Source of the DNA: Liolophura sinensis
Lineage: Eukaryota > Mollusca > Polyplacophora > Chitonida > Chitonidae
Assembly (NCBI RefSeq): GCF_032854445.1
Contig: NC_088295.1
Coordinates: 62,107,249-62,171,248 of the forward strand
Reading direction: 5' to 3'
Length of the DNA stretch: 64,000 bases
Positions 1-47,800 of this stretch are shown one piece after another (positions within the stretch are counted from its first letter, which is position 1; each line of letters opens with the position of its first letter). The position numbers and the translations under genes are program-made. The notes under the pieces were generated by a model that did not search any database, was not told the DNA's origin, and saw nothing but the letters and a program-made list of their open reading frames with translations.

Positions 1-169
1 CAAAATATTTTATACATAGTTCCATTTACCCAGTTGAAGTGTACATGATTTCTAACTTATATTTGAAATTGGGGACTACATTAAATGACAGCAAATAATT
101 CATGCCATAAATATTATGCTGAGGTGCATGATTACTGGTTATATGCATTGTTGTTCACCCGACAGATTA

Positions 170-1029: not shown

Positions 1030-1434
1030 TTAGTATCTTGCAATAGGCTGTGATCTTTTACGTGTGGTGTAAATCAGGCTGTTCCATGTGCCGATTTCTG
1101 GTGAAATTATTATCGATATCTTTTGTTGCTGTCGATAAATTAATTTTCAATTTCCTATAAATGAATTATCAGTATGGATAAATAAATTATTGATATCGAA
1201 TTTGATTCTTCTGCCTCCTCGATGGTTAACCCTGGAACTTCGGCACTGGTAAGGACAGAGGTAAAGAAAGTTTCGTAGCAACATAGAGAGAGCTCTATCA
1301 TTTCAATGGAAACCAACCGGGAACACTATTTATCAATATCGATTATTCCTTTATTGATATCAATAATTCTTTTATGGATACCATTAATTCTCGATTAAAT
1401 GTTTATAATTTGGCACCCCATACGTATACGCTAC

Positions 1435-1640
1435 CTTGAGCTTGGGTCAATGCTGTACGTGTTGAAGTTCTTGTGAAGGCTAAACATAGAAGACTGGGGT
1501 AGGATCTGGAACAAGCTCTCTCTTTCCGCGATGACGTCCAAAGTTGTTATCTCCCTTGATTTATAGCGCTTTATCATCCACGCCGCGTCAAATGCCGATA
1601 GAAAACCCCGGGCACACCCTGTTCCAGTCGGCCAAAAGGG
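1435..1640 (-). CDS. Copy B exon 8 (end of monooxygenase domain)
   Basis: Acceptor TTGTAG before 1640 and donor AAG/GTAGCG after 1435; 206 nt, the same as copy A exon 8. Encodes about residues 427-495, beginning [14 protein letters not shown] and including the AERESLF segment typical of MICAL. The frame ends in phase 2, so a further exon is required. Confidence 0.88.
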
Positions 1641-4600
1641 CTACAACACACATTTGTATTGGTTTATTTCTTTTGAATCTATTTATTTGTCTATTATTAA
1701 TGTATTGATTTATTTATTTATTTATTTATCTATCTATATTTGCTTATTTGACGCATTACTCATGAATATTTCACTTGCAACACGACGGACAAGTGATCAA
1801 CTAAGTGAGGAAACAAATTTAGATTATTCAGAAAACTCATGAATAATGAACATTTCGTAAATCAACGGGAAAATTGTACGAAATTATTTTCCATAATGAT
1901 AATAGGCATCATGTCATAGCAACAAGATGGCCCTATATCTCCTATACCTCAAGTAGACTATCGCCGACCAGACCCATCAGTAAGCTTTTCCCCATCCGTT
2001 CTCGAACGCACGAAGCACTACTTGCAGTAAACATGGACGTGAAGTCAAACATGGCAATGTCTGGTTTTCCGTTCTGGTTCCGTTCATATTCCATGGTTTG
2101 TAAACTGGTCATGTAGCTAGCAGCTTCCTTGGCATATTCCAACAGTTTCTCTTCGTCAACGTTGTCCGCGTTAAGCAGTTCCTCGCTTTCAGTATAATTC
2201 TGAAAAAATTAAATTAACACAGTTGTTAATACGATAATTACAGAAGTAAAACAATAATACAAGCCTATGCGAAAACACTTTTGTTTGATATCATTCCAGG
2301 GGTCTCAACGAATGATTAATACTTCGGGCGAGAAACCTACTGACTGAAAACACAAAATTGACAGTCTTGGAAGGTATGTGTCGAAACATTGGTATACCAG
2401 AGGTCAGTCAGTTTGGACTTTCCAGGTCAATAATGGCAAGGCCAATTCCCAAAACGACGTTTAAGAAAACCACCAAAGAACTAAGAAAGTATCCAGTGTA
2501 CGAAAATAGGACATTATCATGCAAGAGAGGCTTCCAGTGATATTTCCAAGGTATGTTTTAGGAGAATGAGTGAAAAAAGTATTCCAATCTTGTACCATTC
2601 TAATATATAAGTTGTCACTAATCAACTATGTATCTCAGTTTCGTTTTGAAACATCTGTTGCATTAATGTGGCGATCTAATTCAACACGATAAATACAAGG
2701 GCCGTATGGTATTACGTCCCCTTTTTCTAGCTACTTCTTAGCTTTGCAGTCAGCACAAAGGTAACTGTGAATGGCGCATCATGAAACGTGTTTTTGACGT
2801 TTTGGTTTTCCAGTGAGGCAGCATCATAAATATTTGAAACATTGAGACGATGGAAGAGACGTTTAGCCCAACACTGAGATGGTGGAAGAGACCCTCAGCC
2901 CGAATCAAACGAAGTTTTAGTTGAATGATATCATTGTAGGTCGACGCAGTATCCAACATTAGCAGTTCATATTTTTGCGCATTTTGGAATCAAAAATGCC
3001 GTTTCACCATAGAAAACTTACTAATACATTTTACTTACATTTTTAAGAACGCCTCTACTAAGTAAACTCGCCTTCCTGGCTGTCATCACAAAGTAATGGG
3101 TTTCATTTTTGTAATAGACAAAGTTTTCCAGATCTATTCCAGTTATATTCTTCATTTCTTTGAAAGTTGCAATACGAGCATACGATGCCAGACCCCCTAC
3201 TTCCGGTACCAAGGCCTCAGCTGTTGTGCGATGGTTGACGAAATTGAAGGTAATGGCGATAGCCAGCCTCCCTCGAAACTCCTTTCTTCTGAAACCTGTA
3301 TAAGGATATAAATGCAATACGATATTATACCTCAAACAAAATTGCTGGTATTCCATTGAGGACACGCCAGGATAGGTGGCATCTCAATTCGTCAAATGAC
3401 AAATAAGAACTCACGACTGTAATCCGTTTAGCTGAGCTGTAGAAAATGGCTGCATCATTTCACATGTACTCTTTATGAACCTTATCCATCTATGCATACA
3501 ACAGTATGCCTGGATTCGAATTGTTTGGTTTTAAAATTGTTTTAATACAACTGACGACAGCAAATTATTCTGCTGCCTCTTGTGATTGCCAGGTAGCCTA
3601 TTAACTCCATGCACATGGCAAGATGTTTGATCCGCATTGACGTGATTTCTTACAATTTTATTACAAATCTGTAAGTGGTTACAACGTTCGTCTTAGTGGA
3701 GGACGGTATTTCAGTCCACAGGTGATTACGATCATAGTATTCACTCGCGGCGGTATAAAGGTAGTTGGACAGGTACTGGTTGGCCCAAAGTAATTATACT
3801 GTGACTGTAAGGGGCGTCAAGTAGTCTTTGCAAGGGGACACAACTGGTATTTATTTCATTGGTGTTTTATGTCGTACTCAAAAATATTTCACTTACACGA
3901 CGGCGACCAACATTACGGTGGGAGGAAACCGGGCAGATCCCCGGGGAAACCCACAACTAGAGACACAGTCGTGATAAGGCCGAACATAATATTGAATTCG
4001 TGACAAAACTGACCGTTATCCGTTAATAAGTTATAATAGATGCTGGATATCACTTGTTTCACCTGCTAAGGTATTTCTCTTCCCATCTGCCCCAATTAAG
4101 ACATCAAACTGGTATTGTGAGACTGGGCTGTCCTCAGGTATAACCGAAGCTTTCCAACCTTTCACGTCATAAGAATTATCTGAAACACGCAAACAGGTGT
4201 TGTTTTTCCCAATTCAGTTTTGTGAATTCGTCTAAAGTGTTGGCCATTCCGATGCCTGTTGGTCTTTTACCAACGAGGTTGCGGGCTCGAATCCAACCTT
4301 ATCTGGTACTGCCGCGGCTTACGATCAGGTTCACTCAAAAATTAATCTGTTTAATTTAACATAATTTCTGTTGTCTGAGTGAAGCTAGAATGTATTCTTT
4401 TATTATAACACAATATTGTGTCATTCGAGATCATATCCTTTTAGTCTAAAAGAATGCTTATGTTGAATTAATAGAATATGTGTGTTATATTTAACAGAAC
4501 AACATGCTGCAAAACACAATACATTCTAGCATCACTCAGGTAAAAGACTTTCTGTTAGATTTAACAGATTAATTTTTCAGTGTACCTGGAGAAGGGTTGT

Positions 4601-7600
4601 GGTTAGCCAGGGTTTCCTCTGTCTATAAACCTGACCGCCGTTATATAAGTCAGACTTTCTTGAGAAGAGCGTTGAGCACCTATTAACTTTTTACCATCCA
4701 CTATGAATGTACAAATCTCACTGGATTAAAATTTTGCTCCTCATTTGGATCTATTGGTGTTATTCCACTTCACGCGTCATGTCAAAATATTAAATGCTTC
4801 ACGAACTGAACTTATGTGCGATAAACCATTAGCTTTATTTAAACAGGTGGTTTTACGGACTCGATATTCATTTCATATATTCCCGGTATGATTCACATTC
4901 CATTTTTTCTATATAAAGGCAAGCCTGTTGTTTGTAGGTATAGGCCTAAATATGCTTATCAATATAAATCCTGTTCAAGTTTGATACCGATGCTTGGTAT
5001 GACAACTCTGCAAGCTCACTACCTGTCTGACCGGCCTCCAGTTGACCAGATGGTTCCACCAATCCCTCGAAGGACGTATCGGTGTAAATCTGTACTCCAA
5101 GTAAGAGTGCTGTCTTCATCAGGATTAGCTGTAACCTACGAATACCTGGGAATATAGATGTACTATATTTATGTATTGCAAATGACCGGATTTGAGTCCG
5201 CCGTAAAACACCAACCAGATAAATAAATAAATAAATAAATTGGCATTAAACCTCAATTAAACAAACAAATGAATCAATTGACAGTAAACCACAATCAAAT
5301 AAACAAATAAATCCAGTGACATTTACCCTCAGTCAAATAAACAAATCAATCGGCATTAAAACTCAATCAAATAAACAAATAAACCAACTGGCATTAAACC
5401 TCAATCAAATAAACAAATAAATCAATTGACATTAAACCTCAATCAAATAAACAAATAAATCACTTGACATTAACCCTCAATAAAAAAAACAGATAAATCT
5501 ACTGAGCATGTTATCATCACCTGACTTCAACATCCATCAACTTGCATCCTTTCTGGTGAGCATTTAATGACCATTAATGGAACTGGTTTGTAACAATTTC
5601 CATTTTGGGAGGAAAAAAGCAAAAATGTTTTACCTACAGAAAAACTTACTTATGTGGTCGATGCCACCAACGCAGAATTTGGGGTCGAAGATCTTGGCTC
5701 CAATGTTTTTGAGATCTGTTATGAGATATGGCCATAGATGAAGAACGTTGTTACGGGAGAACACAGACCTCTTCTCTAAGACAACCACTGTGCCGCCTAA
5801 TAGAGCCGCCTCTATCGCAAACCTCAGCCCGCACGGCCCAGCACCGATGACCAAAATCTGTTAACAGGTAAAAGGACAAGCTGATTCATTACATTGCATG
5901 GTAAATGTAGACGTCATTTAAAACGTGGATATAAAGCAGCAGTTCTAGGAATTAACTTTGAAGTCATATTCCACGCAACCACCTTTGTGTTTACTGATTT
6001 TCACGGTAGGGATAAAGAAGACACTTAGTTTAACTATTAATTCATTGCCCAAACTATATTTCGTGAATCAGAATCTATAGTTACAGATAACTACCCATGG
6101 GTCTCATGCAGTTACACATCTGATACAGATACTTAACTTTGTTAAAAATGGTAATTGTTGTTGCTTTGCTTCAATCGAATGGTTAGAGCAAGGAAACAGG
6201 ACCGGCATAACTAAAAAATTGTAAAGTACGACATAAAAACCCCTACCAAAAATACATACCTAAAAAACTTTGTGTGACATAAATAAGACGTTCAACTCAC
6301 TTTAGTATTTTTACATGCCTCTCCTCCTTCATAATCAATGTGACTGGCCCGAGCGTCTAGTTTGGCCCACAGCTCCCGGGCTTTCGTGGAGCGGACGCAC
6401 TGTTTGAAGGCATGGTAGGGGTGAAGGTACGACTGTGCCTGTTCCAAGTCGCCAAAGACATGCTCATGAAATTTGGTGAACGTTTCGATGATCTCCCTGC
6501 AGGATTCCGCCTTGAGGAAGTCATCAAACATAGCCTCTGCTTCTGGATCCGAAATCATCTGCACCCTGTATAAATCGATAATGGCATTGATCGTTCATAT
6601 TTACTGGGATATGTCCAATTATCAAAGAGCAAACGTTTGGACATCAACATATTCTTAGTGGTTGGCGTGCCAACAAGGAATAATGGCCCAAGAGCCACTC
6701 GCCAAGGCGTCGCTGTGAGTTCAAGTCCAGCTCATAGTGTCTTCCTCTCCGGCTGTACGAGGGAAAGTCTGTCAGCAACCTCCGGATGATCGTGGGTTTT
6801 GCCCGGTCTCTGCCCGGTTTCCCCATACCATAATGCTGATGGCCGATGAGGAATAAGTGAAATATTCTTGAGTACGGCGTAAAACGCGAATTAAATAAAT
6901 AAGCAAATCACCTTATTCTTCATGTGTATGTATCAGTAACCCCATAGCTTGAAACAATCCAGTTATAGCGAATAGCAAATTAATTTGAATCTGAATTTCT
7001 GTCCCAAAAATGCCACAAAAGTTATCATCGGGCATTACTACGAGCAGGCCCTAACGGTGAAGGAAAGTTGAAAAGTATTTTACTCACAGGACCTAACGGC
7101 GTAGCAAATACTACCAGGGTTTTTATGCATGTACATTCAAATGTTACCACGGTATTTAAACTTAAAGGGTCTAACGATACAGCAAATACCATCATGGAAT
7201 TTTACATGTAAAGCCTAACAATGCAGCAAATGTTACCACGGTATTTATATATGTAGAGCCAAGCAATGTATCAAATGTTACCACGGTATTTATATATGTA
7301 GAGCCTAGCAATGGTTCAAATGTTACCACGGTATTTATATATGTCGAGCTAAACAGTGTATCAAATGTTACCACGGTATTTATATATGTAGAACCTAACA
7401 GTGCATCAAATGTTACCACAGTATTTATATATGTAGAACCTGACAGTGCATCAAATGTTACCACGATATATATATATGTAGAACCTAACAGTGCATCAAA
7501 TGTTACCACGGTATTTTAACATGTACGGGCCTAACAGTGCATCAAATGTTAATGTTACCACGGCATTTACACAAAAAGCTATCTATTAAAGTTACATGTG

Positions 7601-26800: not shown

Positions 26801-29800
26801 TCAAATAAATTGTTCAACACAGGTATGATGAATTCCTATCATCCTTTAATCTACTTCTCAGAATATTTGTCTACGTAGAAAAAAAATCAAAGCATTTCCA
26901 TGCATGAACAGCGTACAAATTTCTGAACAGTTATCAAAATATAACCAAATACACGAGAAATCAATATACATGTACTTCTGAGTTCATTTTTCAGTCTTGA
27001 AATTCCATTAAGTTCTTAGAAATTCCATAGAAATTCTTAAATTTTCCGAGAACAGCATGTAACATTATTTGTTAGAAAAATTCTGATCATCCGCAATGCA
27101 AAATTTAGAATGTATGTTTGCACACATTTGACTTTATAAGAGTCTCCAGAAGCTTGACGAATGGGTATCCAATGGTCTAACCATGTGTTCAATATTTACT
27201 GCTAGAAAGAATTCAGCCTTACTTTTACCACAGGACACTATTCCCATAGCTTAAATTATAATTTTGCATACATCAATACATAAAAACTGATTTCCAAAAT
27301 TTGTGCATGAAAATTCTGTATGACTGAAAGGACCGTACACAAATTAAATCAGAAAACAACTGCATCAAACACACAGAACCATGGTACAAAACATGTACAC
27401 GAATCATACCACTGATTCAGGATATGTGCCAGTTCCATTTGTGTTAACTCGTCGCTGCAATGGGGAAGTAAGAAGAGGACATACAGCTGTGAACCCCCAT
27501 ACAATCCTACCTGCTTCGTTTTAATAAACTCTGATTGTGATTAGCCATGTATGGTAAACTTATCAAAAGCAGAAATGTAATGTGTGCTTGGATGGAAAAA
27601 AATAAAAATGAAATAAATAAAAATAAAATACAAATAAAAAAAAATAAAAATAAAATAAATAAAAATTTAAAAATGAACATTTGGCAGATAAACAGCCACA
27701 CTTTAATTTATATATTACATTTTGAAGAGAACTTCAATTATTCAACACCTACACGCCTAATTATGCTTGACACAACAACCCGAACATTATATAGTATTTG
27801 CAGAAATGCGTGGAGCAGGAAGCATCTTGTATGGCAGGTACAGTTTGCCAGGTACCTTACAGCAGGAAGTTCTCTCCACAGGCCTCTGCTGCTTCCCCTT
27901 CCACCCCCACCCCTCCCCCCCCAAATTAATGCACAGGAAGTCTAGGTGAAACATACAGTGGAATATAAGAAGCCTGTTAGAAGAGGGCTAACTGTGAGCT
28001 TGTTGGAATACCACTTATCTGGTTTTGTGCAAAAACTCCAAATTCTCCTCTATAAACTTTCTTTCCTACAAACTTCAAATGATCATATATAGTTACACAT
28101 ACAGTCCTCATTTTTTATGCACAACTCACTCAGAATCAGACTCTTCCTCGCCTTCTTCCTCCCCTAGCAACAGGTCACATGAAATTGAGGAGCGAAGATT
28201 GTGCTCCGTCTGCTCCTCTTCAGTTTCTTCCTCTCCTTCTAGAGAGTTCTCAAACTCCACCCGCTCGGGTGTTCTCAAGGCTTGTGGGAATGGTTCTTCT
28301 GGGACGGTTAGACCTAAATTGAAACAAGTCAATGGAAAACATGAAAAATTAGTTTTCAGGTCTTGGAAATTTGTGAAATTGGTCTGGGAGGGGTGTGGAT
28401 AATGTGGTGTAGTTACAGGTTTGGATCATATCAAAGTGGTGCTGAAACTGAATCCTTTGTGTGATTTTTATATTTTTGGGGGGCATATTATTAAAGTGTT
28501 ATTAACTGGGATGACAGCAGTGTGAAATCTGTTCTTACCTCCGATTAACTGAGGTGGTGTTTTCTTTTCTACAGGAGACAGTTTTACAGCTGGACTGGAA
28601 TCAACTGTGTCTTTATCCTCAATATTTTCCTGAAATAAATCATCGATACAATTAATATTTGTTTGCACAAAATTTATCTCACACACACAAAAAACAAAAT
28701 AAAAAAATTTTAAAAAAAACCCGCATAAAAGACAAGTGTATACAAAAAGAATAAATGTAATTACACCCACTTCAAAACTTTCTGCTCCATTTAAAACTTT
28801 GTACTACTTAATGTTTAACTATTTAATGATGGAATAATCTGATCTGGAAAAACACAATAGACATCACTTCTTTCCATAGGGCAAATAATTTTACTACCTT
28901 AATATCATCTGCTTCTTCAAAATTACGCTTCCTTCTTGATCTTGACATCATCATTCCAAAGTGCCGGAAACAATAAAAGAGAGCTGAGAGAGAGAGAGAA
29001 AAAAAAAAACACAGATAACTCCAGCACACTTTTCAAATTCTGGCAAAGAGTAGGACTAGGCCTAATTTTCTTGCACATATAAATGTTACCGGTACTTTAA
29101 TATGTAATATTGATATATCACTTAATATAAATATTTTGAAAACCATCACTGCTGGAAATTTTTAAATACATCTTATTAACTTCATGAACGACCAAGTACC
29201 ATTTATCACAGACCATTTTTATTTTGAATGAAATTATCAGTAAACAAGATGTTGTGACATGTAGAATAGCAAGATGTAGTGAACAAAGCTGGGCAATATT
29301 CTATGTTACAGGCCTCAGGTGTTCAAAAATGTATTAAAATTAAATCTTAATACAAGTCTTAAACTAATTTAAAGCAACCAGCAGTGTAGTCCGGGCTTAC
29401 GTTAATACCGAGTTCAAGACCTCCTCTCCCCTGGTATTTTTTTGTGTCAGTACACAAAAGTTTCACAGTATGAAACTTGTAAAGTCCTGTCTCTTGCACA
29501 CTTACGTTCACCCGCTGGTGATTTCTCAAAAGAGTAGTTGCCGAGTCTGAGTGAGACTGCACAGTAGGCACACTTCAGACATCCCCTGTGGAAGAAAAGG
29601 CCCTCGGCACTCATCCTTTCCATCAGGTACACTCTCTTCTTACAGAACACACAAAACTCACTGGCTGGCTGGGCTGCCATCAGGGGCTGTGGGGTGGAGC
29701 GACCGTTCTGAAACACAAGTCATTAAATATTGGATGTTTATCAAATCATGAGGATGAAAATCAAAAATATAAAGGCAAATGGAAATGATTCACTTAACAA

Positions 29801-32800
29801 ATCCATCTTTTTTTACATTCCTTTATCATTTATGGCCTTTTTTTTCATATATTACACCATTACAATATCCAGAAACACTTTAACATCCATACTCCAAACA
29901 GTGGTGTTATAGTCCACATAATAAGTGAATATCACTTAATTATTTGACTGGTTTTTAACATCACAATAAAGAACACCTCAAAGAATGTTTCTTCTTGACA
30001 TGAAGCCGAGTGATTATTTCAATTTTTCATTTAGATTTAATGAAGTAAGAAAATTTCACTAATATGATGGTCTTCAAGTTTTATGTGGATGGAAGAATCG
30101 TAAGTGCCTGGAAAAACCTCCGGCCTTCCTCAGGTACCTGACAAACATCCTTGCTTAAAGATGCATCCGATCCGGCAAGAGCTGGATCTGAATCTCCAGC
30201 CTCGGAGGTCAAAGATAGTTTATACCGTGAAAAAAATATGCTGGACAAAAATATTTACCACACGTTTGCCTGAGTCAACATTATTGAGATCATGTCCACG
30301 GAATTTGGAGACCAGCAGTTCTCCCATTTGTTTGACGCTGACATTTCCCTGAACGTCTTTGTTTGCCGGCCGTTTAATGGCATCGTCCAGCTTGTTCCCT
30401 AACACCAGCTTGTTCCTCAACTCCTCCATCGGGACCTTGTTGTAGCCAGTGAGCATTACGTCATTCTGGAAATGGAAAAGTGCATGCCACTGTACAAAAA
30501 TCACATCTCAATAGGGCTGCATGATTTTGAATCCCCCGAGAGATGGCACTAGTGTGAAGCAGACCCTTGAGCCCTTATTATGACCAAAAATGATTACATA
30601 GCAATGTTTACAATGATGTTTGTCTATATTATGATGTGATAATGATGAACTGGGAAACCTTTGATATCACTAAACCAGCGTCAACATCCGAGTGCTGGGT
30701 GTCTGATGTGTCCCCATTCTTTAAATCTTACATCCTCACGCCATACCTGACAAGTTAAAATATTTCACTTATATGACAAAACGTTACGGGCAAAGTAAAC
30801 TGACCTTAGCCCCAAATCCTCAATCCTTACCTCTTTCTCTTCACGATACCTCTTGCTGCCAAATGTAGGTGTGTTACTGTCTGTGACATCATCTTTGTCT
30901 TTTCTCTGCAGAAAAACAACAGTATGTTAATTACTACCAATGAACAAGCACAGCACATCCCCAATTTAACATCCTCTTCATGTTATTGTGCTTTACGGCT
31001 ACAGGCCTGCAAAACTTCAGGTCAATATATGCAGAACTTTTGAGGAACTACACCGAACATTTACTTAAACATTGATTGTAATACACAATACATCAGGTTG
31101 TGAATTCTGTAATTTATGATATTTAACATGCACAAAGCGAATCAACGACGAAAATCTCCCGCATGTTATTGTGCTCTAGATGCATGGCATGTGTGTAAAA
31201 CACGAGCTCAATACATGCAGTACTTTTTAAGATACAACCCCTAACATTTTGTTTCACATTGCTTTCCCTGGTACTGGATGCTGACGCCCATGCTCAGGTA
31301 TGACATAAGCTACACTTGTACTTATTACAGGCTAGCTAAAAACTGGTGTAACTTGATTAGTTTTACCTTCTTTGCTTTGGAAAATCTGTTACTGAGCCTA
31401 TTGAGTAGAGACACCTTTCTGGTGGGTGATTTTGTGCCTAGGCCTGTACCCTCATCCAATATGGCGGGCTTGGGAATGTCAGCTGAAAGAGAAAGGGAGC
31501 AGATGTTAATACTTTTGAACAGTACAGCTTTCAACATGTGTACAACATTTGGTTTTCCAGTTAAGCCAGAACAAAGTGATTACCTCATAATAACAATCAC
31601 TTTTTTACATCACTGCAGAGCTACATATGCCATGAGGGTTCACGTATTTATGTATTCATTTATTTGATTGGTGTTTTACCCCATACTCAAGAATATTTCA
31701 CTTATACGACAGCAGCTGTATTAAATCAAACACACCAAAATACTACCAAACTTTTATGGTTGCTCACACCAGAACTATTAGTGAATATAATTCAGATGAT
31801 TCAAGTAAATAATTAAGTCTTGTTTCATGTGTAGAACCTCTGGCTAAATTGGATTTATTTGTTTATTTATTTGACTGGTGTTTTACGCCATAGTCAATTA
31901 TATTTCACTTATATGACGGCGGCCAGCATTGTGGTGGGAGGAAACCGGGCAGAGCCTAGGGTAAACCCACGACCATAAACAGGTTGCTGGAAGACCTTCC
32001 CATTTACGGCCGGAGAGAAAGCCAACATGAGCTGGACTTGAACTCACAGCGACCGCACTGGTGAGAGGCTTCTGGGTCATTTCTCTGCGCTAGCACGCTA
32101 ACCAACTGAGACACGGAGGTTACAGGGCTAAATTAGAAATTGTGCCTTAAGTAACGTGTACACCAAAATGATCTTGAAAAAATATTCAAAGTGGAAATAT
32201 ACACAAGCACAAATTAAATATTAAAATTTGTCCACACATGAAGTGTCATAAGCTAATAGTACTAATACACATGTGGACAGCTTTCTACAGATACTGTGTA
32301 TACCAGAAAAATTGGTATACACCAAGGTAAATTTTGGTGTATACACTCTACAAATCTGGTAAAGAAGCTAGGGTGACTGCATAAGAAACTGTAGAACTAT
32401 AAGAAAGGTGTTCACAGGAGAATAGAATGAAATCAATTTGAATTTGTGCATGAAGTCCACAAAACAGGGAAATGGTAAAATCGCCAGAGGAACCCAATAC
32501 CCTTCTTGTTCTCTTACAACGTAGGTAGGCATGTGCATAAAAACTGTAGCCCTACATGAAACTTGATTACAAGTATACAACAAATTGTTGCCCTGCATAG
32601 AGGTTTTATTTCTAGAGAAATCATGTTTACTACAGAAAACAAACTGAAGTCTATAACTGGCAAATTTTTGAACTGAAAGTCTATCAATTAAAAACAATAA
32701 AAAAACATACACAAAGCCTATAAAATTAAAACCCATAAAACAGTTTAACCTTCCATCATTAGGACCGTTCTTGTACACAGGCGAAAAGAAATATAAAAAA

Positions 32801-35800
32801 AAAACAAAAAAAAACATAACTTCCTATCTCTGTATGTTGGAGATCCCACATGATGACCATTATACAGGAGTTAACAAAAAAGTTTAACCTGCCATCCGAG
32901 TTTGTGCATTTACGCACCATACCTTACACTAGAGAGCTAAACACAAAAGCTATACATGTAAAGGAGCTAAAAGAAAAAGCTTAACCTTCAATCCATGTAT
33001 GTGAACCCACTATACAGGAGGTAAAAAAAAAAAAAAAGCTTAACTGGACACCGACACCAACGCTTATCCCCCCTCTCACAATACCTCGCCTCACTTCATA
33101 CAGGCAAGCTAAAAAAGACTTGATTTTCCCGTAAAACAACAGAGAGTTAGTTTTCCTGTACATACAGATGTGGCAACCAGACTTACGTAATGGCAGATTT
33201 TCTTTCTTGAGGACATCGTAGAGTTGAGAAAGGTACGAGACCATGGTGAGCTTGTCGGGGACTTCACATTTGGCCATGTCTTCTCCGGACATCACAGGCT
33301 GAACACCCAGTTCCTTCTGGGCTACATCAAATGCCTACAAAGCCAACAGAAGATCAGATGAGGTTTACGGGATTAGCAGATAAAAAATTACCACTTACCT
33401 TCAACCTTTTAAACCACCTCAACAACCATTATTTTCAAACATTCTGAGAGAACTATGGGGTTTAGAGAAATAATTTGCACAGTTTTATGAAGCTTACATT
33501 TTTATTGACACAGACAAATTTTTAGCATCATTTTCAAAATAACTGTACACATAAATTCCACAGAAAAAAAAACGCTTTAGTGGTTGCAAAGGCTGAAGAT
33601 TTACAGTAACTGTCCTGCTATATGAAAAGTAGTGCAAATCATGTGCAGATAATCACATCAATTTTTAGCCGGGTCATTCTTTAATGAAAATATTTCTTGA
33701 AATCATAGCAAATTTATTGTATGTGCAAACAGATACAAAAGTAGAGAATTCATGGAGATGCTGAGGCTAACCACCTAATCATCCGATTTCTCCTAGATTC
33801 CTTTCAGGTGAGAGAGACGGCCATATCTGACATATTCAAAGCCTACCATGTACAACTGAGTGGTTCTTAGGCATCAACTTAGATACATCAAGACTGACAA
33901 AGAATCATACATGTAGATCTGCAGAAAAGATCATTCAGTTACATAAAAATCCCCAAAATATCAGCTCTAAACACATCCAACGCTATGCAAATCAAGGGAG
34001 ACAACTCATGAATGCCACATTTCAAAGTATACATGTAAACTGTTTAAAATCAGAGAAGACTGAACTTACCAACTGATTGTTTTCTGCTATGTTTTCAGCT
34101 GCAAGACTTTTGAAGTCACTGGGAATAAAAAAAAAGCATATATTTACCATACAAGTATAAACCATATGTATGCATTTAGCTTCTGAGTGATAACCTGAAA
34201 TCTTCCAACTTACTAAGCTGGTAAGCAAACTAACAAAGAATATGTAATGCTATTCTGACCATGACTGCATTGGATCATAAGGACACAGCTAAAATTCATA
34301 GAAAAACCACCAATATATACCAAATTTTATTAAGCATGTAACTTTCTGTGGCTACACAAAGTGTCTAGTACCTATATTTATCATAAACTTATTAGTGTGA
34401 ATCACCCCACTATGTAAGAAAAGAAGGCTCAATACTTTTTAAACACTTACATCAACTCTGGTCTGAATATATGTATAAGAGCACAGAGGGCCAGCCCACT
34501 CTTCCAGGAGGCCGTGAAGTCAGTCACGTGAACACTGTAATACTTTCCAGAGTTTAACAAGTTCTGGCACCAACGCAACAGCGTGTAACTATCAATGAAA
34601 TCTTCTGAAAAGTTGAAAAAGATTTAAACTTACGCCATACTCAAAAAAATACTTCACCTGCACAATGGCAGTCAGCATTATGATGGAAGGAAAACCGTGA
34701 CTATCTGACCTTCTCATGTACGACCAGAGAGAAAGCCAACATAAGCTGGACTGGAAGTCACAGCGCATTGGTGAGAGGCTCCTGGCTGATGTGCTAGCAC
34801 ACTAAACCCTAAGCCACTTAGGCCCCTTTCAGAGTTTTTGAGATGGAAGATTAAAATCTATATGTATACAATCTGTTGTAAAGTCAATACATCCAAACTG
34901 CCTGTATAAATATGCTGACAATCATAAAATACACTGTCTGAGGCATTGTATAAATATGCTGAAAGACACATGAATTTTTCTCGCGACAAACAGACACAGT
35001 TAAAAATTATGTTCATTGAAATAGTGTGAAATACAATGCTGCCTCAATGGAACATCATGCTAAAGATGCTGACTCTGACATCCGGCACAGAATGCTGACA
35101 CTAGCAATCATAGAGACAGACCATCACTAATCGCCTTGCACTGTACACGGCGTGAGAAAGTATTAAGACTGACCATTTACACAGGCACATCCCAACTTCG
35201 GACTGAATATTTCACTCTATTCCAAGAGCCATTTTTTCTCACCATTTCTAGCTCTCTTAGTTGGCAGCTCAAACACCTCATCTTTTGAAGACGCATCACC
35301 TGAATCGTACAAATGACGCATTTGCTCTGGCTTGAAGAATTTTGAATTTAAATTAGGATATCTGAAAAATAAAAAGAAACAAATAAAGAATTGCCAGAAT
35401 ATATAATCAGCTTATCTCTCTACCTTAACACAAGTATGTATTAAAACAGGAAAAGAAAAACAAAACTAATAAACTTAAAACCAGCATGGAACAAATACAT
35501 GTACATGCACCGGGATTTAGATGTTACTTCAATGCAGTATATTAACAGACTACTCAGTATGTTCATTTCCTTACCTTGTGTTGGGATCTATGCTGTAATC
35601 ATGGAAGTTTTTGTGCAGGTTTTCTGGTGTTGTTTGTGACAGAAGCAGGAATATGCTCTCCCTCTCTGCTAACACTTGCAATGGGGTGGCTTTCCCCGAG
35701 GCAAAGCTGCGGATCATCCAGGCAGCGTCAAACGCTCCCAGAAACCCCCGCGCACACCCAGTACCCGTCGGCCAGAATGGCTACAATCACACGTATACAT

Positions 35801-38800
35801 ACATTTACATGTGTATAATAAGTCTTATACAGACTAATATTTATTTATTTGAATGGTGCTAATTCTGTTATCAAGAAAAAATAAATAAAAACTTTCAAAA
35901 TTTGTTTGATGTTCACTGATTAGAAATAATCATGTCCTTTTGCTTGTCTTAAGTTTAATTTAGTTTAGAATTCATTTATTTCAGTGGTGCTTTATCCCAC
36001 ACTCATAAATATGTCACTTGAGTGAAATCAGCTTTAATACTGGCAGTGCACCGTATGGTATATGTGGTAACTAGCACATGTGTACACCTGTTAGGATCAG
36101 GAGTTGCAAATGTATTACATAACGCCTTATTACTATGCAAACTGATTTCAATGAATATGTGCACTGGGCTTTACCAACATTCAAGCCTATGGTTTGTATC
36201 AAAACTTAATATGCCAGGCTGTGCAGTGTTAAAGAGAACAGTCACAAGTTTATTGGTAAATTATGATCTGCCCACCTCCAGTGCACTGTTAAGAGAACAG
36301 TCACAAGTTTACTAGTAAATCATGATCTGCCCACCTCCAGTGCACTGTTAAGAGAAGTGTCACAAGTTTATTGGTAAATCATGATCTGCCCACCTCCAGT
36401 GCACTGTTAAGAGAACAGTCAAAAGTTTACTAGTAAATCATGATCTGCCCACCTCCAGTGCACTGTTAAGAGAACAGTCAAAAGTTTATTGGTAAATCAT
36501 GATCTGCCCACCTCCAGTGCACTGTTAAGAGAACAGTCACAAGTTTATTGGTAAATCATGATCTGCCCACCTCCAATGCACTGTTAAGAGAACAGTCACA
36601 AGTTTACTAGTAAATCATGATCTGCCCACCTCCAGTGCACTGTTAAGAGAACAGTCACAAGTTTATTGGTAAATCATGATCTGCCCACCTCCAGTGCACT
36701 GTTAAGAGAACAGTCAAAAGTTTATTGGTAAATCATGATCTCCCCACCTCCAGTGCACTGTTAAGAGAACAGTCATAAGTTTACTAGTAAATCATGATCT
36801 GCCCACCTCCAGTGCACTGTTAAGAAAACAGTCAAAAGTTTATTGGTAAATCATGATCTGCCCACCTCCAGTGCACTGTTAAGAGAACAGTCACAAGTTT
36901 ATTGGTAAATCATGATCTGCCCACCTCCAGTGCACTGTTAAGAGAACAGTCAAAAGTTTACTAGTAAATCATGATCTGCCCACCTCCAGTGCACTGTTAA
37001 GAGAACAGTCACAAGTTTATTGGTAAATTATGATCTGCCCACCTCCAGTGCACTGTTAAGAGAACAGTCACAAGTTTACTAGTAAATCATGATCTGCCCA
37101 ACTCCAGTGCACTGTTAAGAGAACAGTCACAAGTTTACTAGTAAATCATGATCTGCCCACCTCCAGTGCACTGTTAAGAGAACAGTCACAAGTTTATTGG
37201 TAAATCATGATCTGCCCACCTCCAGTGCACTGTTAAGAGAACAGTCAAAAGTTTATTGGTAAATCATGATCTGCCCACCTAGAGTGCATTGTTAAGAGAA
37301 CAGTCAAAAGTTTACTAGTAAATCATGGTCTGCCCACCTCCAGTGCACTGTTAAGAGAACAGTCAAAAGTTTACTAGTAAATCATGATCTGCCCACCTCC
37401 AGTGCACTGTTAAGAGAACAGTCACAAGTTTATTGGTAAATCATGATCTCCCCACCTCCAGAGCACTGTTAAGAGAACAGTCACAAGTTTATTGGTAAAT
37501 CATGATCTGCCCACCTCCAGTGCACTGTTAAGAGAAGTGTCACAAGTTTATTGGTAAATCATGATCTGCCCACCTAGAGTGCATTGTTAAGAGGACAGTC
37601 ACAAGTTAATTGGTAAATCATGATCTGCCCACCTCCAGTGCATTGTTAAGAGAAGTGTCACAAGTTTACTAGTAAATCATGATCTGCCCACCTCCGGTAC
37701 ACTGTTAAGTGAACAGTCACAAGTTTATTGGTAAATCATGATCTCCCCACCTCCAGTACACTGTTAAGAGAACAGTCACAAGTTCATTGGTAAATCATGA
37801 TCTCCCCACCTCCAGTGCACTGTTAAGAGAACAGTCAAAAGTTTATTGGTAAATTATGATCTGCCAACCTCCAGTAAACTGTCGCCCACCAGCCCCATCA
37901 ACAATGTATGACCATTCCTTTCTATAATGCGGGATGCATTGTGAGAGGCAAACATGGAGGTAAAGTCAAACATGGCTACATCAGGCTGGCCGTAGTGATT
38001 GATGGCGTACTCCGGATTTGGCAGCATGTGATTGGTGGAGAAATCTGCAGCTTCTCGAGCATAGTTGAGCAAGGCATCCTGATCGACATTCTCTTTGGAG
38101 AGCAGCTGGACAGTGTCATTGTAGTCCTGAAGAAAAAATCCATTCAGAAATCAATCATTTTGGTGATAGCAATTCGCAAAAGCACAGTCTAATACCTCAG
38201 CCTCTTCGCACATGAAAGAATAACTTTTAGTGCAATTTATGTACATTTTTAATTTGACGTTGCAGACAAAACTATATTGGTTGGATTGTTAGTTTCAAAG
38301 CTTCACAAAAAGTAACATTTTATCAGTCAACACAGAAGAATAGGCTTGAATAAACACCTTGCAAACATGTGAAAAAGTTAAGAATTACAGTCGTCTTAAA
38401 GTGAACTACAAATCAGTGCAATATATGAAGTGGTTTGTTTGTATTTTACACCTCCAGGTTTTTAACTATCAGAGTTAACAAGCACAAATCTTCGGACATA
38501 AACTGTATAATATTATGTCAAACTTCTCAAGTAAAGTATTTTTACTTTGCTTCTTTACTTCCATTATGTAAAAGAATATAAGAGTGTTCCTTCAGTCGGC
38601 TGGTTTCAACCAAGTACTGAGCTAGATGTAGTGTTCTTAAAAACCACGGCAGTTTGGAACGTTCAGCCAACACAAACTAATGGTATGAACTGCAGCAGTT
38701 CAGAGCCTTCAGCCAAAATGAACTGATGGTCCGAACTAAAGTTTTTCGGAACCTTCAGGAAACAGAAACTAATGGCCCGAACTAAAGCTTTTCGGAACCT

Positions 38801-41800
38801 TAAGCCAACACAAACTAATGGTCCGAACTAAAGCTTTTCGAAATGTTAAGCCAACACAAACTAATGGTCCGAACTGCAGCAGTTTGGAACGTTCAGCCAA
38901 CACAAACTAATGGTCCGAACTGCAGCAGTTTGGAACATTCAGCCAACACAAACTAATGGTCTGAACCGCAGCAGTTTGGAATGTTCGGCCAACACAAACT
39001 AATGGTCTGAACCGCAGCAGTTTGGAACATTCAGCCAACACAAACTAATGGTCTGAACCGCAGCAGTTTGGAACGTTCAGCCAACACAAACTAATGGTCT
39101 GAACCACAGCAGTTTGGAACATTCAGCCAACACAAACTAATGGTCTGAACCGCAGCAGTTTGGAACATTCAGCCAACACAAACTAATGGTCTGAACCGCA
39201 GCAGTTTGGAACGTTCAGCCAACACAAACTAATGGTCTGAACCGCTGTAGTTTGGAATCTTCAGTCAACACAAACTAATGGTCTGAACTGTTACAGTTTG
39301 GTACCTTCAGCCAACATAAAATAGTGGTTTGAGGTCTAAATTGCAGCTCTTTAGAACCTTCAACCAGCTAGAAGTAGAGATGGAATGCTTCAGTTTGGAA
39401 CCTTGAGACAACCAGTAACAAGAACACTGTGCAGGTCTAAAAGAAAGATTTCAACAACACAAGAAAAAAAAATCAAAACGCCTTAAGATCTGTACAAAAT
39501 TACATTGAGCAGGACTCCTTTCTCCAGCAGGCTCATCTTCTTGGCTGTCATGACAAAATAATGAGTTTCATCTTTGTAGTAGACAATATTCTCCAGGTCA
39601 ATCCCAGTCTGTTCCTTCAGATCAAGGAAGAACTTCTGGTTGAAGATGAAGGCCACCCCACTGATTTCCTCTACACTGGCCTCAGCCTGGGTGTTCCCGT
39701 TGATAAAGTTGGCAGTAATGGCTATAGCGAGCTTTCCTCGGAATTCTTTCCTCTTAAAACCTGAAATATTTTATAAGTTGACTATTTCAAAATGACATCA
39801 TTATTTACTTGACCAGTGTTTTACGCCACGCTCAAGAATATTTCCCTTATACGATAGTGGCCAGCATTATGGTGGGAGGAAACCCGCCAGAACCACTGGG
39901 AAAGCCACAAACATCTGCAGTTTGCTGGCCAAACTTTAGAAGTGTTTGTTAAATATATATACATGTGAACAAAAAAGGAATAAAAAAGGTAGAAAGAAAG
40001 CAATCAAATCATCACTGTCTTGTTATGGTTTCAATGTTGTCACCTTTCCATTTTCTTTCAATTTTCATTTTGTAAATAATTTACTTAAACCATCTTGATT
40101 GTTGTTTTACTATCACCAATGCTGTTACTCATTCTTACCGTGAAGTGTATTTCGTTTGCCATCAGCTCCTATCAAGACATCAAACTCAAACTCAGAAACA
40201 GGGTTGTTCTCTGGTAAAATCCTTGCTCTCCAGCCAGTGCCTACAATACATACATGAATGTAGAGACAAAGTAGTTAAGCAAAAAAATAACAGGCCTCTT
40301 AAGTGTTATCATATTTTCTGCATCTATTCAGTTATTCACCTGTCCTCACTTTTTTTTACTTTGTTTTCTTGACTTCCAGCTTTAAACAGCAACCATCCTC
40401 CACTGTACTTCATTTATTTATTTATTTGATTGGTGTTTTATGCTGTATTCAAGAACATTTCACTTATACGACTAAAGCCAGCATAATCATGGGGGGGAAC
40501 CCATGACCATCTGCAGGTTGATGGAAGACCTTCCCACGTACAGCTGAAGATGAAGCCAGCGTGAGCTGGACTTGAACTTACAGCGGCTGCATTGGTGAAA
40601 GGCTCCCAGGTCATTATGCTGCGCTAGCATGCTAACCAACTGAGCCACGGAGGCCCCCAGTACTTTATTTAATTGCTTGTTTATTTATTCAATTGGCATT
40701 TTACACTGTACTCAAAAATATATCACTTATCCAACTGCGACCAGCATTATGGTGGGAGAAAACAGGGCAGTGCCCTGGGGAAACTCACAACCATCAGCAG
40801 GCTTCTGGCAGACCTTCCCACTTGGAGACTCCCCTGCACTTTCAACTTCCTGCATGTATGTTTACAATACCCACATAACACTTCTAATCAAGGAATGCAT
40901 CTTATGGCAATAACAATTCTTCACACCTTTGTCTAGGCTTTTCAACTATCAACAATGTGGGCCATATACCTGTATGTACATCTACCAGTACAGTATGAAG
41001 CTACACCTGGAGATTTTATGTACATATAGTGTACATCTATAAACATCTATTCATATTTATTTATTTATTCGATTGGTGTTCTACGCCGTACTCAAGAATA
41101 TTTCACTTACATGATGGCAGCCAGCATTATGGTGGGAGGAAACCGGGCAGAGCCCGGGGGAAACCCACGACCATCTGTAGATAGCTGGCAGACCACATCT
41201 ATTTTTATAGATATCTGTATAAACTTATGCAATTCATGGTACAGATACTACTAATTTGCATATTAATTCCAATTCTGGTGTATTGTATAGCATAAACAGG
41301 AAAACCAATTTGTTAAGTAATTTATGCATCAATCAAAATAAGACCAGTATTTCATGTATTTTATCAAACATCAAAGAATTCTGGAACGCTTCAACTTTTT
41401 CAACATATTTCAGCGGTAACTTTATGTAACTTAAATTCTGAATTTCTCCCAGTACCCGTGAAGCAAATGTTAGTCACTAAACAAGGAAAGTACTTACATA
41501 GATCTACCAGTCATACAACCTTTGTTAATAAATGATTAGGAGACACACGTTAATACATAAATTTACACACTTTTTAAAAACATCTAAAGAAAAAAGATGC
41601 GAAATGACTAAAACAGTGTATGACTAATGGTCATGTGGACAGCTAAATATTATACACACAAATCTACATGTAATTTGTAAAAGACAACATAAAAAAAAAT
41701 TTCAAAACCTCATGTTAGAAACTATAAACAAGATATCACCACAGGTGTGTAACTACTGAGTACACCAGTAAATGTTTCTAGAATGATATGAAAATACATC

Positions 41801-44800
41801 AAAAGTTTTCATGCTTTGTACATAACCCTCTGGTACATACACGTGCGTATGGGACTATAATGGAAGCATTACATGCTCATCCTTTACTTGTGCAAAAAGA
41901 ATATTTGAATGCTTCTGAAACAAAGCCAATACTGAGATTCTGAGAGAACACCAAAATTGAGCTAACGATATCTGCCTTGCCTAAGGCCAGGTGTGCTGTT
42001 TATGAGACATCTACATGTACATGTAAGTGGAAATAAACTGTATGAGTAAACATTTCTCCATGTAGATAAAGCATATTTTTATTCATTTCTTTATCTATCT
42101 GCAGGTATATTATATTATTATTCAACTCCAGTGGAAATAAAATAAATTTCACTTTTATGATGGCAGAAGGGAAGTGAATTGCACAAAGTAAATAAGAAAA
42201 TCCATCAAAAGTAGAATATTTTCTACAAAAAACAGAATCTATTTTCAAGTTTCGCAAAGATTACATGTCCATGTTGTTGTTCATGTAAACTTATGTGTGA
42301 ATGAACTGTATTCTAAAAAAAAAAAATACATGTCAGCCTAGAGGTGCACACATTTCACCAATTCCCAAAGTGCTCCCCCTACATGCCCATTATATAGGTG
42401 CAAATCATTTCTGTTATGTTCTCAGTTCTTTTTACCAAGATGTCTATTGACACATTTTTACAACAAAAAGAAAAGCTACATCTACAAGGGTCTGTGTTGA
42501 TCTAGTACAATGTAGCAAAGTACCACAGAACGTGCCCTAGGACTTACCAAGACGTTGTCTTCTAGAGCGGAACCTCAAAAGGGCTTTAAAAAGTCATCAC
42601 ACACACCATGATATACGTGTACATGTACGTGGACATTAAATTACTAACCACAATACAAATGGCAGAAAGTAAAAGGGCTAATTTCTTCAACATACTAAAA
42701 ATACCGGCTAAGAAATACAGAAGGTACATGTATATTTCATATAATATACTGTATGCAAAGTCTAAGTATGTGTAGGTAAATAAAATGCAAAAAGCAGAAA
42801 TAAGAAGTTGTAAAAAATTTTTGATTAAATTTTAAAAATCTGAAAAGAAAATCCAACTCTGTACAAATATTGCTTTCAAATCTAGTCAACAAAAATATTA
42901 TGATCTACCGGTACTCCTACTCTCAACCCTCCTTCCAGAAAAACAGCCAAATTATTTTTAACACCACTTGATATGCCTGATGTCTGGGTTTGTGATTTTC
43001 CTAATTAACATTAAAACTGAACACCACCTGGTTGTGCTCAACAAGGCTATAGAAAGAATTGCAGAAAAAGCTCTGGTCAAATCATTTTTAAAAGAAGTGG
43101 TCACTGAATTATTATTTCTCATGCACTTTTTAAATGGAGTTGCCTTTCCCACTGAAATCACTACTTCAATGTCACTGATCTGGCTAACATGAAAAACGTA
43201 TATGGAATACAAGTATACACATGTTTACACATGTGTGGTGTAAGTTTATTCTGAGGTGTAACACATAAGAATAAATCACTACAGCGAGGAGAACTGCTTA
43301 CCATCTTTACTGTTTTCCTCAACTTCTGGAGGTTCAATGAGGCCTTCAAATGAGACATTTGTATGGATTTCTACTCCAACCAACAGGGCAACTTTCATTA
43401 ATATACACTGCAGCTGACGTATACCTGAGAAACAGAAAATGAAACATATAAGTAAGATTTCTGAAGTCTTGCAACAATACTTTATCATTAAACATACAAT
43501 CAACTGTAAAGAAATAAACCGTTTAAATTGACGCACATTTAAAAAATCCTCATAAAATACTGCGCAAGATTTTATACAATAAGTAAGGCTCTTTTCAATG
43601 CCTACATAGCAAATGTACACATACATGTAGTATAAGTGTTCAAGAGGGAGTGTCTACAAAGAAATGGACAGACAGACAGACGGACAGACTGACTGAAGGA
43701 TGTACCACATGTGTGACAGGCTAATTTTCATTCACTCAAAATACATGTACAATAAACACACAGAATACACGCAAGAGTATCCATGTATACATGTACACTG
43801 AACATCTATTTATAAATCAAGCTAAAGTTTTTGTAAACATGGTATAAACATTCACATCTATCAACATGTGCAGGTACATCTGCACTGATACAAATGGCTG
43901 TTATGTGTACACTGTACATGAATGAATGCTGTATATAATGGTTGTTGTTTTTTTTGTGATTGTTTAAGGTGAACATTTATGATCATATGAGACAAACTCA
44001 GTGCCATTCAACTCACCCAATTATTTCTGTCTTTCACAATTTTTGCTGCTGCCATAGAAAGAGTTTAAATTATTATGAAATATATGTATGTACATGTATG
44101 TATGCTTAGGGGTTAACATCATACTTACATGCAATAATTTTTCAGACATATGACGACAAGGAGTCGTTAGGAGTGTGTACATATATTGTGTCTTCTTGTG
44201 ACAGGGCAAGTCCATGCCACCAAAGTGTTGTCAGCATTGAAGTATCATTCTAAAGACACCAGAAATGACACCCCACCCAGTAACATTATACTTACACCTG
44301 GAGAACAAGTCATGTTTCCTTGCTCTATAACCTTTCAGAGCTGAGTGCCAAGCAAGGAAAAATCTTTGACATGACCTGACCCGGGTTTGATCCCTACGTC
44401 TCCTGACTTCGTATTATGAATATGTTGGCCTTTCCCAACCACATTCAAATAATGTGACATTACCATCTTCATAAGAATTCCAGTTATTTGTGTATGGAAC
44501 ATTTTAAAATTTAGACAACTCCTGGATAAATCATCTTAAATGAACTATATGTACATGTACCTTATACTAGGATCATTCACATAAGTTTTAATGGATTTGC
44601 ATGTACACTTGCTCAAAATAACGTGAAAAATGTTTAGAAACTACATACATACACCGTCTGAAAATCCCACCCTAGAAAATAATTGTTTTACTCGATTCCT
44701 CAACCTTTTCCCATACGAAAGAGCAACTTTTAGTGCAACTTATGAACATTTCTAATTTGATTTTGGTGACAGAACTCAAATGACTTGATTGGCCAATTTC

Positions 44801-47800
44801 AAGGCTTCAGAAAAAGTACAATTTTATTAGTCTACAAAAAATAATGCCTTCAGAATATGCTTCAATAAACACCTTGCAAACATGCGAAAAATTCCCTTAC
44901 ATGATGACAGCCAAAAGTGATCAGATTAAACCACTGACTTTTGACAGGTTCTAGTGGTAAACAGTACACGTTGGAGGCGGAAGACAATGGTGCCTATCTG
45001 ACTTTAATGTATATCTCCATGTATTGTGAAAAGAAAATTCTGTATAGAATGTAACCAGGAAATAAATCTGCTTCAAAAAACAGGTACAAATGATTTTCAT
45101 GAACCTGCATACCTTCATTCACATGATATGATTGATAAACTTGCTGATCTCATAACATGACAATTTCTCTGTCAGGCCCTTAAACTTACTGATATGATCA
45201 ATGGCTCCAGCACAGAATTTCCCAAAGAACTTTTTGGCGCCAAGGTTTTTGAGATCAGTGATGAGGTAAGGCCAAAGGTGAAGGACGTTGTTCCGAGAGA
45301 AGCGGTCGCGCTTCTCCACAAGGACCACCTTGGCCCCCAGGAGGGCGGCCTCTATAGCCACCCGTAATCCACATGGTCCGGCTCCTATCACAAGCACCTG
45401 GCAAGCACAACAGTGGGATAAAAAAAGACAACAAGAAAAGCAAAGTGCAGCATGACAGGTTTATAGTATGGTACGTCTTTTTTACTTCCGAGTCCAAATG
45501 CCACTTTCAACATATCTGAACAATTTATAAAATTTCTGATCAGTTTATTTATTTGATTGGTGTCTTCTGCTGTACTCAGGAGTATTTCCCCTGTATGACT
45601 GCTGTCTGAGGTATGGTGGGAGGAAACAGGGAAAATCCATGACCATTCACAGGTTGACGGAGGTTATTGCCACGTATAATTAAGAAGATTAAATGGGTAA
45701 CTTTACATCCAATATACACCACTGCAATTCACAACGAGCTTTCTGCTTCAAATAAAACTTTATACTGAATATCAAAATCTTACTCAATACATTTTATAAT
45801 TAATTTCCCGGTTGAGTGCCGAGTTTCTGTACACATACTATATAAATATCTTAAAGAGATTAAAGAAGTTCCCTAAAGAATGCATTTAGTATATATATAT
45901 ATATATATATAAATATAGAAAGCAGTAAATATACACGTCACATATCATGGTTACTTGAAGGGTCATGATTGGCATGAACATGTAGTTAGCCATGTTAAAT
46001 ACATGTACATCTACAAGTAAGTGAATCTGGAAGATTTAAAACTGTCTTGAATTTTGCACAAGACTAGAAGTTCACCTACATGTACTAAGGCAAGATTTAT
46101 AAATATGGCTGCCGTTTGGCAACAGAAATCTTACACTTCCTGACTTCTCTGCCGTGTAAATTAGTGTACATGTACTTTAATGACCACAGCAAACTTCCTG
46201 TATATACATGTACAACTATGAAAGAAAATTGGTGTTCCGATCAACAGGAAGTGAAATGACCTCTGTGGAATCTGGCTACACACAAATACATAACGATGGT
46301 GGAAAACTGTGTTTAAATTGTGAATAATACACGTATCAATGTCAATTCCTACACAGTTACTTCCTGACAAAACCACATTGAATCAGATAACCCAAACTGA
46401 TGTCATCTTTTGAAGCAGATATTATGCTTGTCTGGTTATAGCATTACACACAAAACATTTTGAACATGATTTCCATCAAAGTCAAATACCTGGCTGGTTT
46501 TATATAAATTTTAAACTTTAAATAAATCAGAGACAAATATGATATTCAAACACCTGTCTCTAACTCATACAGCATAATGCATGTGACTGCACATAATTTT
46601 GTACAGTCAAATTAAAAACTTTATGTTTTATAAACAGAGTAATTTAACCTAAACCATTCAACTTCGGCATTTCACTTGAAGTTAGGCTTCTAAAAATGTG
46701 CTTTCAGAATGATTCTTTAAATGCCATCACCTGAGCTTTTATTCTAAGAAATCAATCAAACTTCACAAACAAAAAAAACTGTAAGTAAAACTCTAAAAAA
46801 CAAACCTATTAAGTGGATGAATCAACCACAATCAAGGAATATGTGTCTGAAGAAATACAACAAATTTACACCAAAACTGCTTGTAACACCTTGTAGCAAC
46901 CTATGGAATTTTGTCACCTACGCTGTAAATGTATATGCACTCTTACCCTTGTGTTTTTGCAGGCCTCTCCTCTTCTGTAGTCTTTGTGAGAGGCTCTCTT
47001 GTCCAGCTTGACCCATATTGACTGAGCCTTCCATGATGTGACACAAGACTTGAGGCGGGGGTAGAACTGACGGTGGTCCACATTTTTGAGGCCCAGGGCA
47101 TCGCAGAGCTGGTGGAAGGTGAGGAGGATGCTTTTGCAGGTGCCCGCATTGATGAACTGGTTGAATAGTGCCTCTATGTGTGCGTCGCGTTTCTTCTCCA
47201 ACCCCGCCACATGCTTTCTTGGCAGCATGTCATCTCTGAAACAACATCAACATGACGCCTATTTATAGGGTTTCACACTTCAAAAAGAATGCATTAGATC
47301 GAAAATCAACTGATCTATATGTCCTTCACAGCACACCACATCTTAACAGCACACCACAAATGACTTAACACAAAACTTAACACTAGGAATGTCCATATAT
47401 ATACATGTATGTGTTAAACAAACAAGGATTATAACCTGAAAAACAGCTTTCCTATGGAAAATGTACAGTCCATGTAGCAAATGACTGAAAAGTATAAATA
47501 CTTGTAAGTGGGGTACATGTATGACAAGATCTGCATGATGAAAAAGTATTGATAACCATTATTCATAGTTTAGTACTAACCACATGTATACATGTACAGT
47601 ATATGATCATTTCTGTCCATCTACATGTACATGTCTTCCATATTCATTATAACATCAATGTACATCTAGATACATCTTTTTTAAATGGTACTTCAATCTT
47701 TATTACATTTCAATCCACATACATCCATTGTACAGCTTACTAGTACATCTACATCATTATGTGCAGCATTTTTGTATTTATTTTTTGGATCTGTGTTTCC

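Follow-up and report, generated by a model that had tools for sequence, protein, structure and literature searches.

A minisatellite spanning a splice donor of a MICAL gene in the chiton Liolophura sinensis, and similar arrays at other exon ends

A MICAL gene of the chiton Liolophura sinensis carries a minisatellite that starts inside exon 7 and continues through intron 7, so that the exon–intron boundary itself belongs to the tandem repeat. The array is a 'mirage' as the term is used for amphioxus, where the Adh3, globin (BflGb6/9) and troponin C genes are described as containing minisatellite-like tandem duplications of exon–intron boundaries, and similar repeats occur in PGBD5 (PMC3087553, PMC3902484). 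It probably arose, with a probability of about three in four, as a tandem duplication across the boundary that later expanded, and it would survive since the first donor is still functional and everything after it is removed with the intron. The array appears to be one case of a class recurring at the exon ends of other genes in this genome.

The window is the whole stretch of DNA analysed, 64,000 nucleotides (C1:62107249–62171248), and the genome searched comprises 609,464,459 bases in 632 contigs, of which contig C1 accounts for 96,433,062 bases. The window contains two tandem MICAL genes, at about 1–6600 and 29500–47250, on the minus strand. The hand-joined exons of the array-bearing gene match MICAL3 in the PDB with an E-value of 1.5e-237 and the Pfam model Rossman_Mical with an E-value of 3.2e-64, which agrees with the identification made in the earlier note. 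A genome search with MICAL exons 7–8 returned four matches, two per MICAL copy. The features of the locus, in window coordinates, are as follows.

36221–37873, minus strand: 59-bp minisatellite with 28 units (28 × 59 + 1 = 1653 bp), from exonic TGGAG to intronic TGCAC, with an extra T in the last unit
37869–38126, minus strand: MICAL exon 7 (numbered as in the earlier note; the sixth coding exon by hand count), phase 0; the array begins in the final 5 nt of the exon, or as many as 14
37863–37868, minus strand: authentic exon 7 donor GTTGGC (GAG-GTTGGC)
35781–37868, minus strand: intron 7, whole, 2088 nt, the array making up 79% of its length
35575–35780, minus strand: exon 8, the next MICAL exon; the E–P junction is contiguous in MICAL3
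36270–37809, minus strand: 26 intact decoy donors (24 GGAG-GTGGG, 2 CTAG-GTGGG), at 59-bp intervals between 37809 and 36275
36286–37831, minus strand: 24 acceptor-like TTAACAG motifs, with 10 nt between each and the donor position that follows
36221–37868, minus strand: AATAAA hexamers in the sense direction, 16 copies, a single one in each of units 0, 2, 5, 6, 7, 10, 11, 14, 16, 17, 19, 20, 22, 23, 25 and 27
1641–1947, minus strand: equivalent intron of the tandem MICAL paralog, 307 nt, donor GAG-GTATAG

TRF finds the 59-bp repeat at 36221–37882 with 28.2 copies, 93% matches, no indels and a score of 2853, far beyond chance, and so bears out the 28-copy minisatellite in intron 7 that the earlier note had reported. 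That note had also seen about 28 decoy donors, each behind a decoy acceptor, with an AG, ten bases and a GT in every unit. The donors hold for 26 of the 27 downstream units, the exception being unit 13, which is dead (it reads TTGGGC, position 37101). The AG is kept in 24 of 27, AACAA replacing AACAG in units 3, 4 and 9, and 'every unit' is too strong since the complete arrangement is present in 23 of 27. Read in donor phase, a unit consists of 49 nt from GT to AG followed by 10 nt; the ten-base piece is TGCACTGGAG in 21 of the 27 units, and three such pieces joined (30 nt) have no stop in phase 0 and restore the frame, as had been proposed. The sense AATAAA, which is an addition to the earlier note, occurs in 16 of 28 units and in antisense nowhere in the array; the 16 copies are counted as one event, because one founding hexamer can yield them all. 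The equivalent intron of the paralog has no 59-bp array, TRF finding there only short AT-rich repeats at 1655–1737. A second minisatellite (38642–39332, 46 bp × 15) lies in the preceding MICAL intron and touches no exon.

From unit 7 onward, identity between units is 96.1–96.6% at lags 3, 6 and 9 versus 94.6–95.6% at ten other lags, a hint of a three-unit higher-order repeat from which lag 12 (95.6%) departs. An A at column 14 is present in the edge units 0 and 27 and in a single inner unit, 14; its presence in both edge units is as expected if edges escape homogenisation. The units also hold the palindromes CAGTGCACTG and ATCATGAT, with TTTACTAGTAAA in 10 of 27, and a TAG variant recurs in units 15, 18, 21 and 24. 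A genome search that skips very common words, and therefore does not prove absence elsewhere, found the array at one locus; a mobile or dispersed repeat was rejected on this result, within the reach of the same search.

The exon certainly supplies TGGAG (5 nt) to the unit, and at most 14 nt. The resemblance between ACAGTTTACTGGAG and ACAGTGCACTGGAG extends over 14 nt, 12 of them identical. The far flank of the array (CTCTTTAACACTGCAC-AGCC), however, is matched as well by the unit's TGCAC and most of AACAGTGCAC, which favours the intron over the exon as the source of the acceptor-like AACAG. At the unit junction, TTAACAGTGCAC-TGGAG, the part through TGCAC is similar to the far flank (TTTAACACTGCAC-AGCC), and what follows is similar to the exon (TTTAC-TGGAG). 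This joining of intron-like to exon-like sequence is in line with the earlier proposal that an exon–intron boundary was amplified; the accompanying view of the exon 7 end as the first, divergent unit holds for TGGAG and is doubtful for AACAG. The residues DSLLE are encoded at the exon 7 end in both MICAL copies and in MICAL3, which makes it less likely that the exon once read GTGCAC and limits the sure exonic contribution to the 5 nt, 14 at most.

The process would have begun with a short tandem duplication across the boundary between MICAL exon 7 and intron 7, with breakpoints at TTTAC-TGGAG in the exon and TGCAC-AGCC in the intron, both ending in AC. Growth to 28 units may have taken place via unequal exchange or slippage. 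The donor of the first copy would still join exon 7 to exon 8, and the array would be tolerated because all later copies are spliced out as intron. Exact joining of the two exons alone gives the conserved protein, with E and P contiguous as in MICAL3; correct splicing therefore adds nothing. Some leakage to the decoy donors would be expected, producing transcripts whose reading frame would stop 15 nt inside the intron. We infer the duplication mechanism, the main use of the authentic donor and near-neutrality from these features, and the string of fake splice sites is probably harmless.

Donors were scored with a generic matrix and with a local matrix built from the 17 other donors of both MICAL genes of the window, a small set with hand-assigned exon ends from which the authentic donor was left out. 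The generic matrix gives the authentic donor 4.9 bits versus 9.2–9.4 for the main decoys and 7.8 for two TAG variants; the local matrix gives 1.5 versus 4.5–5.9. The decoys, which the earlier note had considered at least as close to consensus as the authentic GTTGGC, are thus clearly better by weight matrix, by about 3–4.5 bits. Among 18 MICAL donors the local matrix ranks the authentic one last; 17 of 17 others carry A or G at +3 in place of its T. Use of the next donor would add 59 nt, with the in-frame stop 15 nt into the intron. The predicted local accessibility of the authentic donor is 1.2e-4 versus a median of 4.4e-3 for the downstream copies, and 25 of 26 copies (units 1–26, the dead unit 13 counted) are predicted to be more accessible than it. 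RNA structure that hides the decoy donors was therefore rejected, for donors only, because the predicted accessibility of the acceptor-like 9-mers (median 4.5e-4) falls below that of background 9-mers (medians 0.9–1.3e-2). A 91-nt piece, or 1.5 units, folds well (z −3.7). As the decoys score higher and are predicted to be more accessible, it cannot be taken for granted that splicing uses the authentic donor exclusively. The six GT/AG-critical columns show no extra conservation: they carry 4 minor variants across the 27 units and are as variable as the other columns (permutation P 0.51). There is no sign of selection on them, or of units being kept for splicing, in a test whose power is limited by homogenisation.

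Similar arrays were sought across the genome with the donor motif AGGTRAGT occurring three times, the pattern read backwards serving as control. With gaps of 12–42 there are 766 + 1027 matches versus 532 + 397 for the control, and with gaps of 43–73 there are 1280 + 1287 versus 614 + 636. The 4,360 matches, about twice the control, overlap, since one array is counted many times and the two gap sets overlap. Among the matches listed with gaps of 12–42, C1:0–6.95 Mb holds 18 distinct donor arrays versus 6 for the control, by our own grouping. Listed matches are concentrated at this end of the chromosome: the donor matches of this set all lie in C1:0–7 Mb, as do 47 of about 100 listed control matches, whose list reaches 51.6 Mb. 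The sample inspected consists of all 25 distinct donor arrays among the matches listed, all on C1, the second list extending to about 5.5 Mb. Ten of the 25 begin at the end of a coding exon supported by homology (Pfam or PDB, E ≤ 0.001; exon peptides at array edges picked by eye at the junction), and in these ten the last 12–59 exonic nt recur in the repeat unit.

L002: ankyrin exon; 31-bp × ~15 array at L002:1324–1774, with 23 of the 31 nt of the unit from the exon end
L014: antistasin exon; 81-bp array, open in frame through most of it, with one stop in the 5′ piece
L015: Raptor exon
L018: Branch exon
L021: SNF2-related exon; the closest PDB chain, at 1.8e-18, is named Helicase-like protein
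L022: HEAT exon, just under the Pfam curated cut-off
L023: DUF3535 exon, just under the Pfam curated cut-off
L030: prominin exon
L032: iron hydrogenase-like exon
L033: 2-oxoglutarate dehydrogenase exon

The arrays of L021, L022 and L023 (48, 33 and 66 bp) lie within 25 kb at C1:4178252–4199451, on one strand and in the order DUF3535–HEAT–SNF2, which we take to be that of BTAF1/Mot1; on this assumption they represent one gene with three donor-spanning arrays. The L014 array could be either a repeat within coding sequence or a mirage that keeps the frame. L014 and L035 (C1:1309195–1312207) share the 81-bp antistasin array, with two frames open almost throughout. The other 15 of the 25 arrays have no homology support. 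Eleven have no exon at the edge (L006, L013, L016, L017, L019, L024, L025, L026, L027, L029 and L031), with other repeats directly upstream of L013, L017 and L031, where the true array edge may lie beyond; four (L012, L020, L028 and L034) have an open frame that matches no family.

A blind Pfam scan (E ≤ 0.001) of 69 open frames on the 5′ side of the arrays matched 10 models; as five of these are ankyrin, at most 6 of the 69 frames are matched. On the 3′ side, none of 48 open frames gave a match (flanks of 18 of the 25 arrays, 17 usable). By family, the scan picked up only four of the ten cases with homology support (ankyrin, Branch, prominin and HEAT), and its two weakest other matches, Alpha_L_fucos and CRAL_TRIO_2, were traced to no locus. 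Blind open-frame length differs weakly between the 5′ and 3′ sides (P 0.046) and between sense and antisense (P 0.07); frames of at least 150 nt occur in sense 5′ of the array in 11 of 25 cases, 3′ of it in 3 of 17, and in antisense in 3 of 25. Homology is the better test. Acceptor-type arrays, detected with TTTCAGG, exist as well (856 matches versus 608 for the reversed control). Among the 20 listed, all on C1, three run into an exon-like frame: L064 (Glyco_hydro_18, chitinase GH18, E 1.8e-10), L075 (tetraspanin-like, E 0.003, below the curated cut-off) and L077 (no family); for L062 and L074 the sequence taken is array throughout, the 3′ edge lying beyond it. Uniform birth of minisatellites would give about 500–890 donor-spanning arrays, assuming 150,000–220,000 introns and a 50-bp unit; the perfect AGGTRAGT, on which the observed matches are based, represents only part of all donors.

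The favoured reading is that the MICAL array is a tolerated by-product of frequent minisatellite birth, because its splice columns are unconserved, structure does not hide the donors, and splicing is reported as normal for the Adh, globin and troponin C mirages of amphioxus (PMC3087553, PMC3902484). Minisatellites are common in this genome, with four arrays (20–110 bp, at least 4 copies) in 60 kb taken at six fixed positions and six in the 64-kb window. Among the three options of the earlier note (tuning of exon 7 splicing, recursive splice sites and neutral accident), the last fits best, seemingly as one case of a recurring class and not as a one-off. A regulatory role through leaky donors, U1 recruitment or control of the 16 sense AATAAA motifs is possible, as conjecture. 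One such role is that of a length-variable splicing modifier, in which U1 would settle on the stronger decoys and a fraction of transcripts would retain n × 59 nt and be lost to nonsense-mediated decay, so that array length would tune MICAL output. The strength and predicted accessibility of the decoys and the early in-frame stop speak for it, as does the human ABCA7 intron-18 VNTR, a 25-bp repeat whose first GT is the exon 18 donor; for the VNTR including the donor, one-unit retention of about 2% is reported, and length correlates with exon 19 skipping and lower expression (PMC5954066). One-unit retention in ABCA7 is, however, described as unchanged by VNTR length (PMC5954066), and with the unconserved splice columns and the normally spliced amphioxus mirages also against it, a modifier role seems unlikely.

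It is still less probable that the downstream donor-like sites recruit U1, aid the weak authentic donor and keep the transcript from being cleaved too early at the 16 AATAAA motifs. The last place of this donor in the local ranking, its unusual +3 and the strand bias of the hexamers would suit such protection, but one founding unit accounts for all copies of both motifs, under the generic matrix two of the other 17 donors have lower scores than the authentic one and a third is about level with it, and the same donor of the paralog is also weak (4.5 generic, 4.4 local) though it has no array. Units serving as 10-nt microexons or recursive splice sites are very unlikely, despite the complete AG–10 nt–GT arrangement in most units and the frame kept by three of them: 49-nt introns and 10-nt exons would be required, the inserts would break into the conserved DSLLEPFWP that spans the exon 7/8 junction in MICAL3, and the acceptor-like motifs are predicted to be poorly accessible. 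Recursive splice sites normally consist of a juxtaposed AG-GT, and in the array units ten bases lie between the two. An assembly artefact is equally improbable; tandem arrays can be mis-sized and the HiFi coverage is given as 14x, but distinct variants tell the units apart and the reported average HiFi read of 8,347 bp exceeds the 1.65-kb array (PMC11068029). A far-reaching alternative is that boundary minisatellites are genome-scale in this chiton and seeded preferentially at 5′ splice sites, the MICAL array being a U1-recruiting reservoir that left the authentic donor free to decay to GTTGGC and guards the intron from its own 16 polyadenylation signals; taken as a whole, this is improbable.

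The kind of array is already known from amphioxus mirages, ABCA7 and IFI6. As in the amphioxus mirages, the units span an exon–intron boundary, many carry AG/GT signals and boundary units are left out of homogenisation; unlike them, the array belongs to a mollusc and not a cephalochordate and has 28 units versus 6 and 3 in two BflGb6 haplotypes (PMC3087553, PMC3902484). With the ABCA7 VNTR it shares a donor-anchored intronic minisatellite, decoy donors and a frame broken by one-unit retention; the ABCA7 repeat, in contrast, starts at the GT itself, whereas the MICAL array takes in at least 5 exonic nt, and splicing effects were measured in ABCA7 (PMC5954066), the MICAL array being so far a genomic observation. 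The minisatellite of human 6-16/IFI6 gives rise to multiple splice donors, and its units, like those of MICAL, supply donors; unlike in MICAL, two downstream units are said to serve as such (as described in PMC4526556; title cited in PMC2915984). Intron gain through tandem genomic duplication of AGGT-containing segments (PMC3443670) likewise makes splice-site pairs, but the MICAL copies lie inside an existing intron and create no new one. In titles and abstract openings of the literature on repeats, splice sites and mirages, a body with subscription papers mostly outside it, no mirage was found in a mollusc; the abalone TSSK1-like minisatellite is placed in intron 3, and the accessible part of its description mentions no boundary (PMC6905558).

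Mirages, described for a few amphioxus genes, are now placed in a mollusc, and the arrays at other exon ends suggest that they are numerous there. Many exons trailed by near-identical donor copies constitute a natural experiment in which the spliceosome chooses the first of equal or better sites. MICAL would test this more sharply, its decoys scoring above the authentic site. The same genome bears on how new introns could arise.
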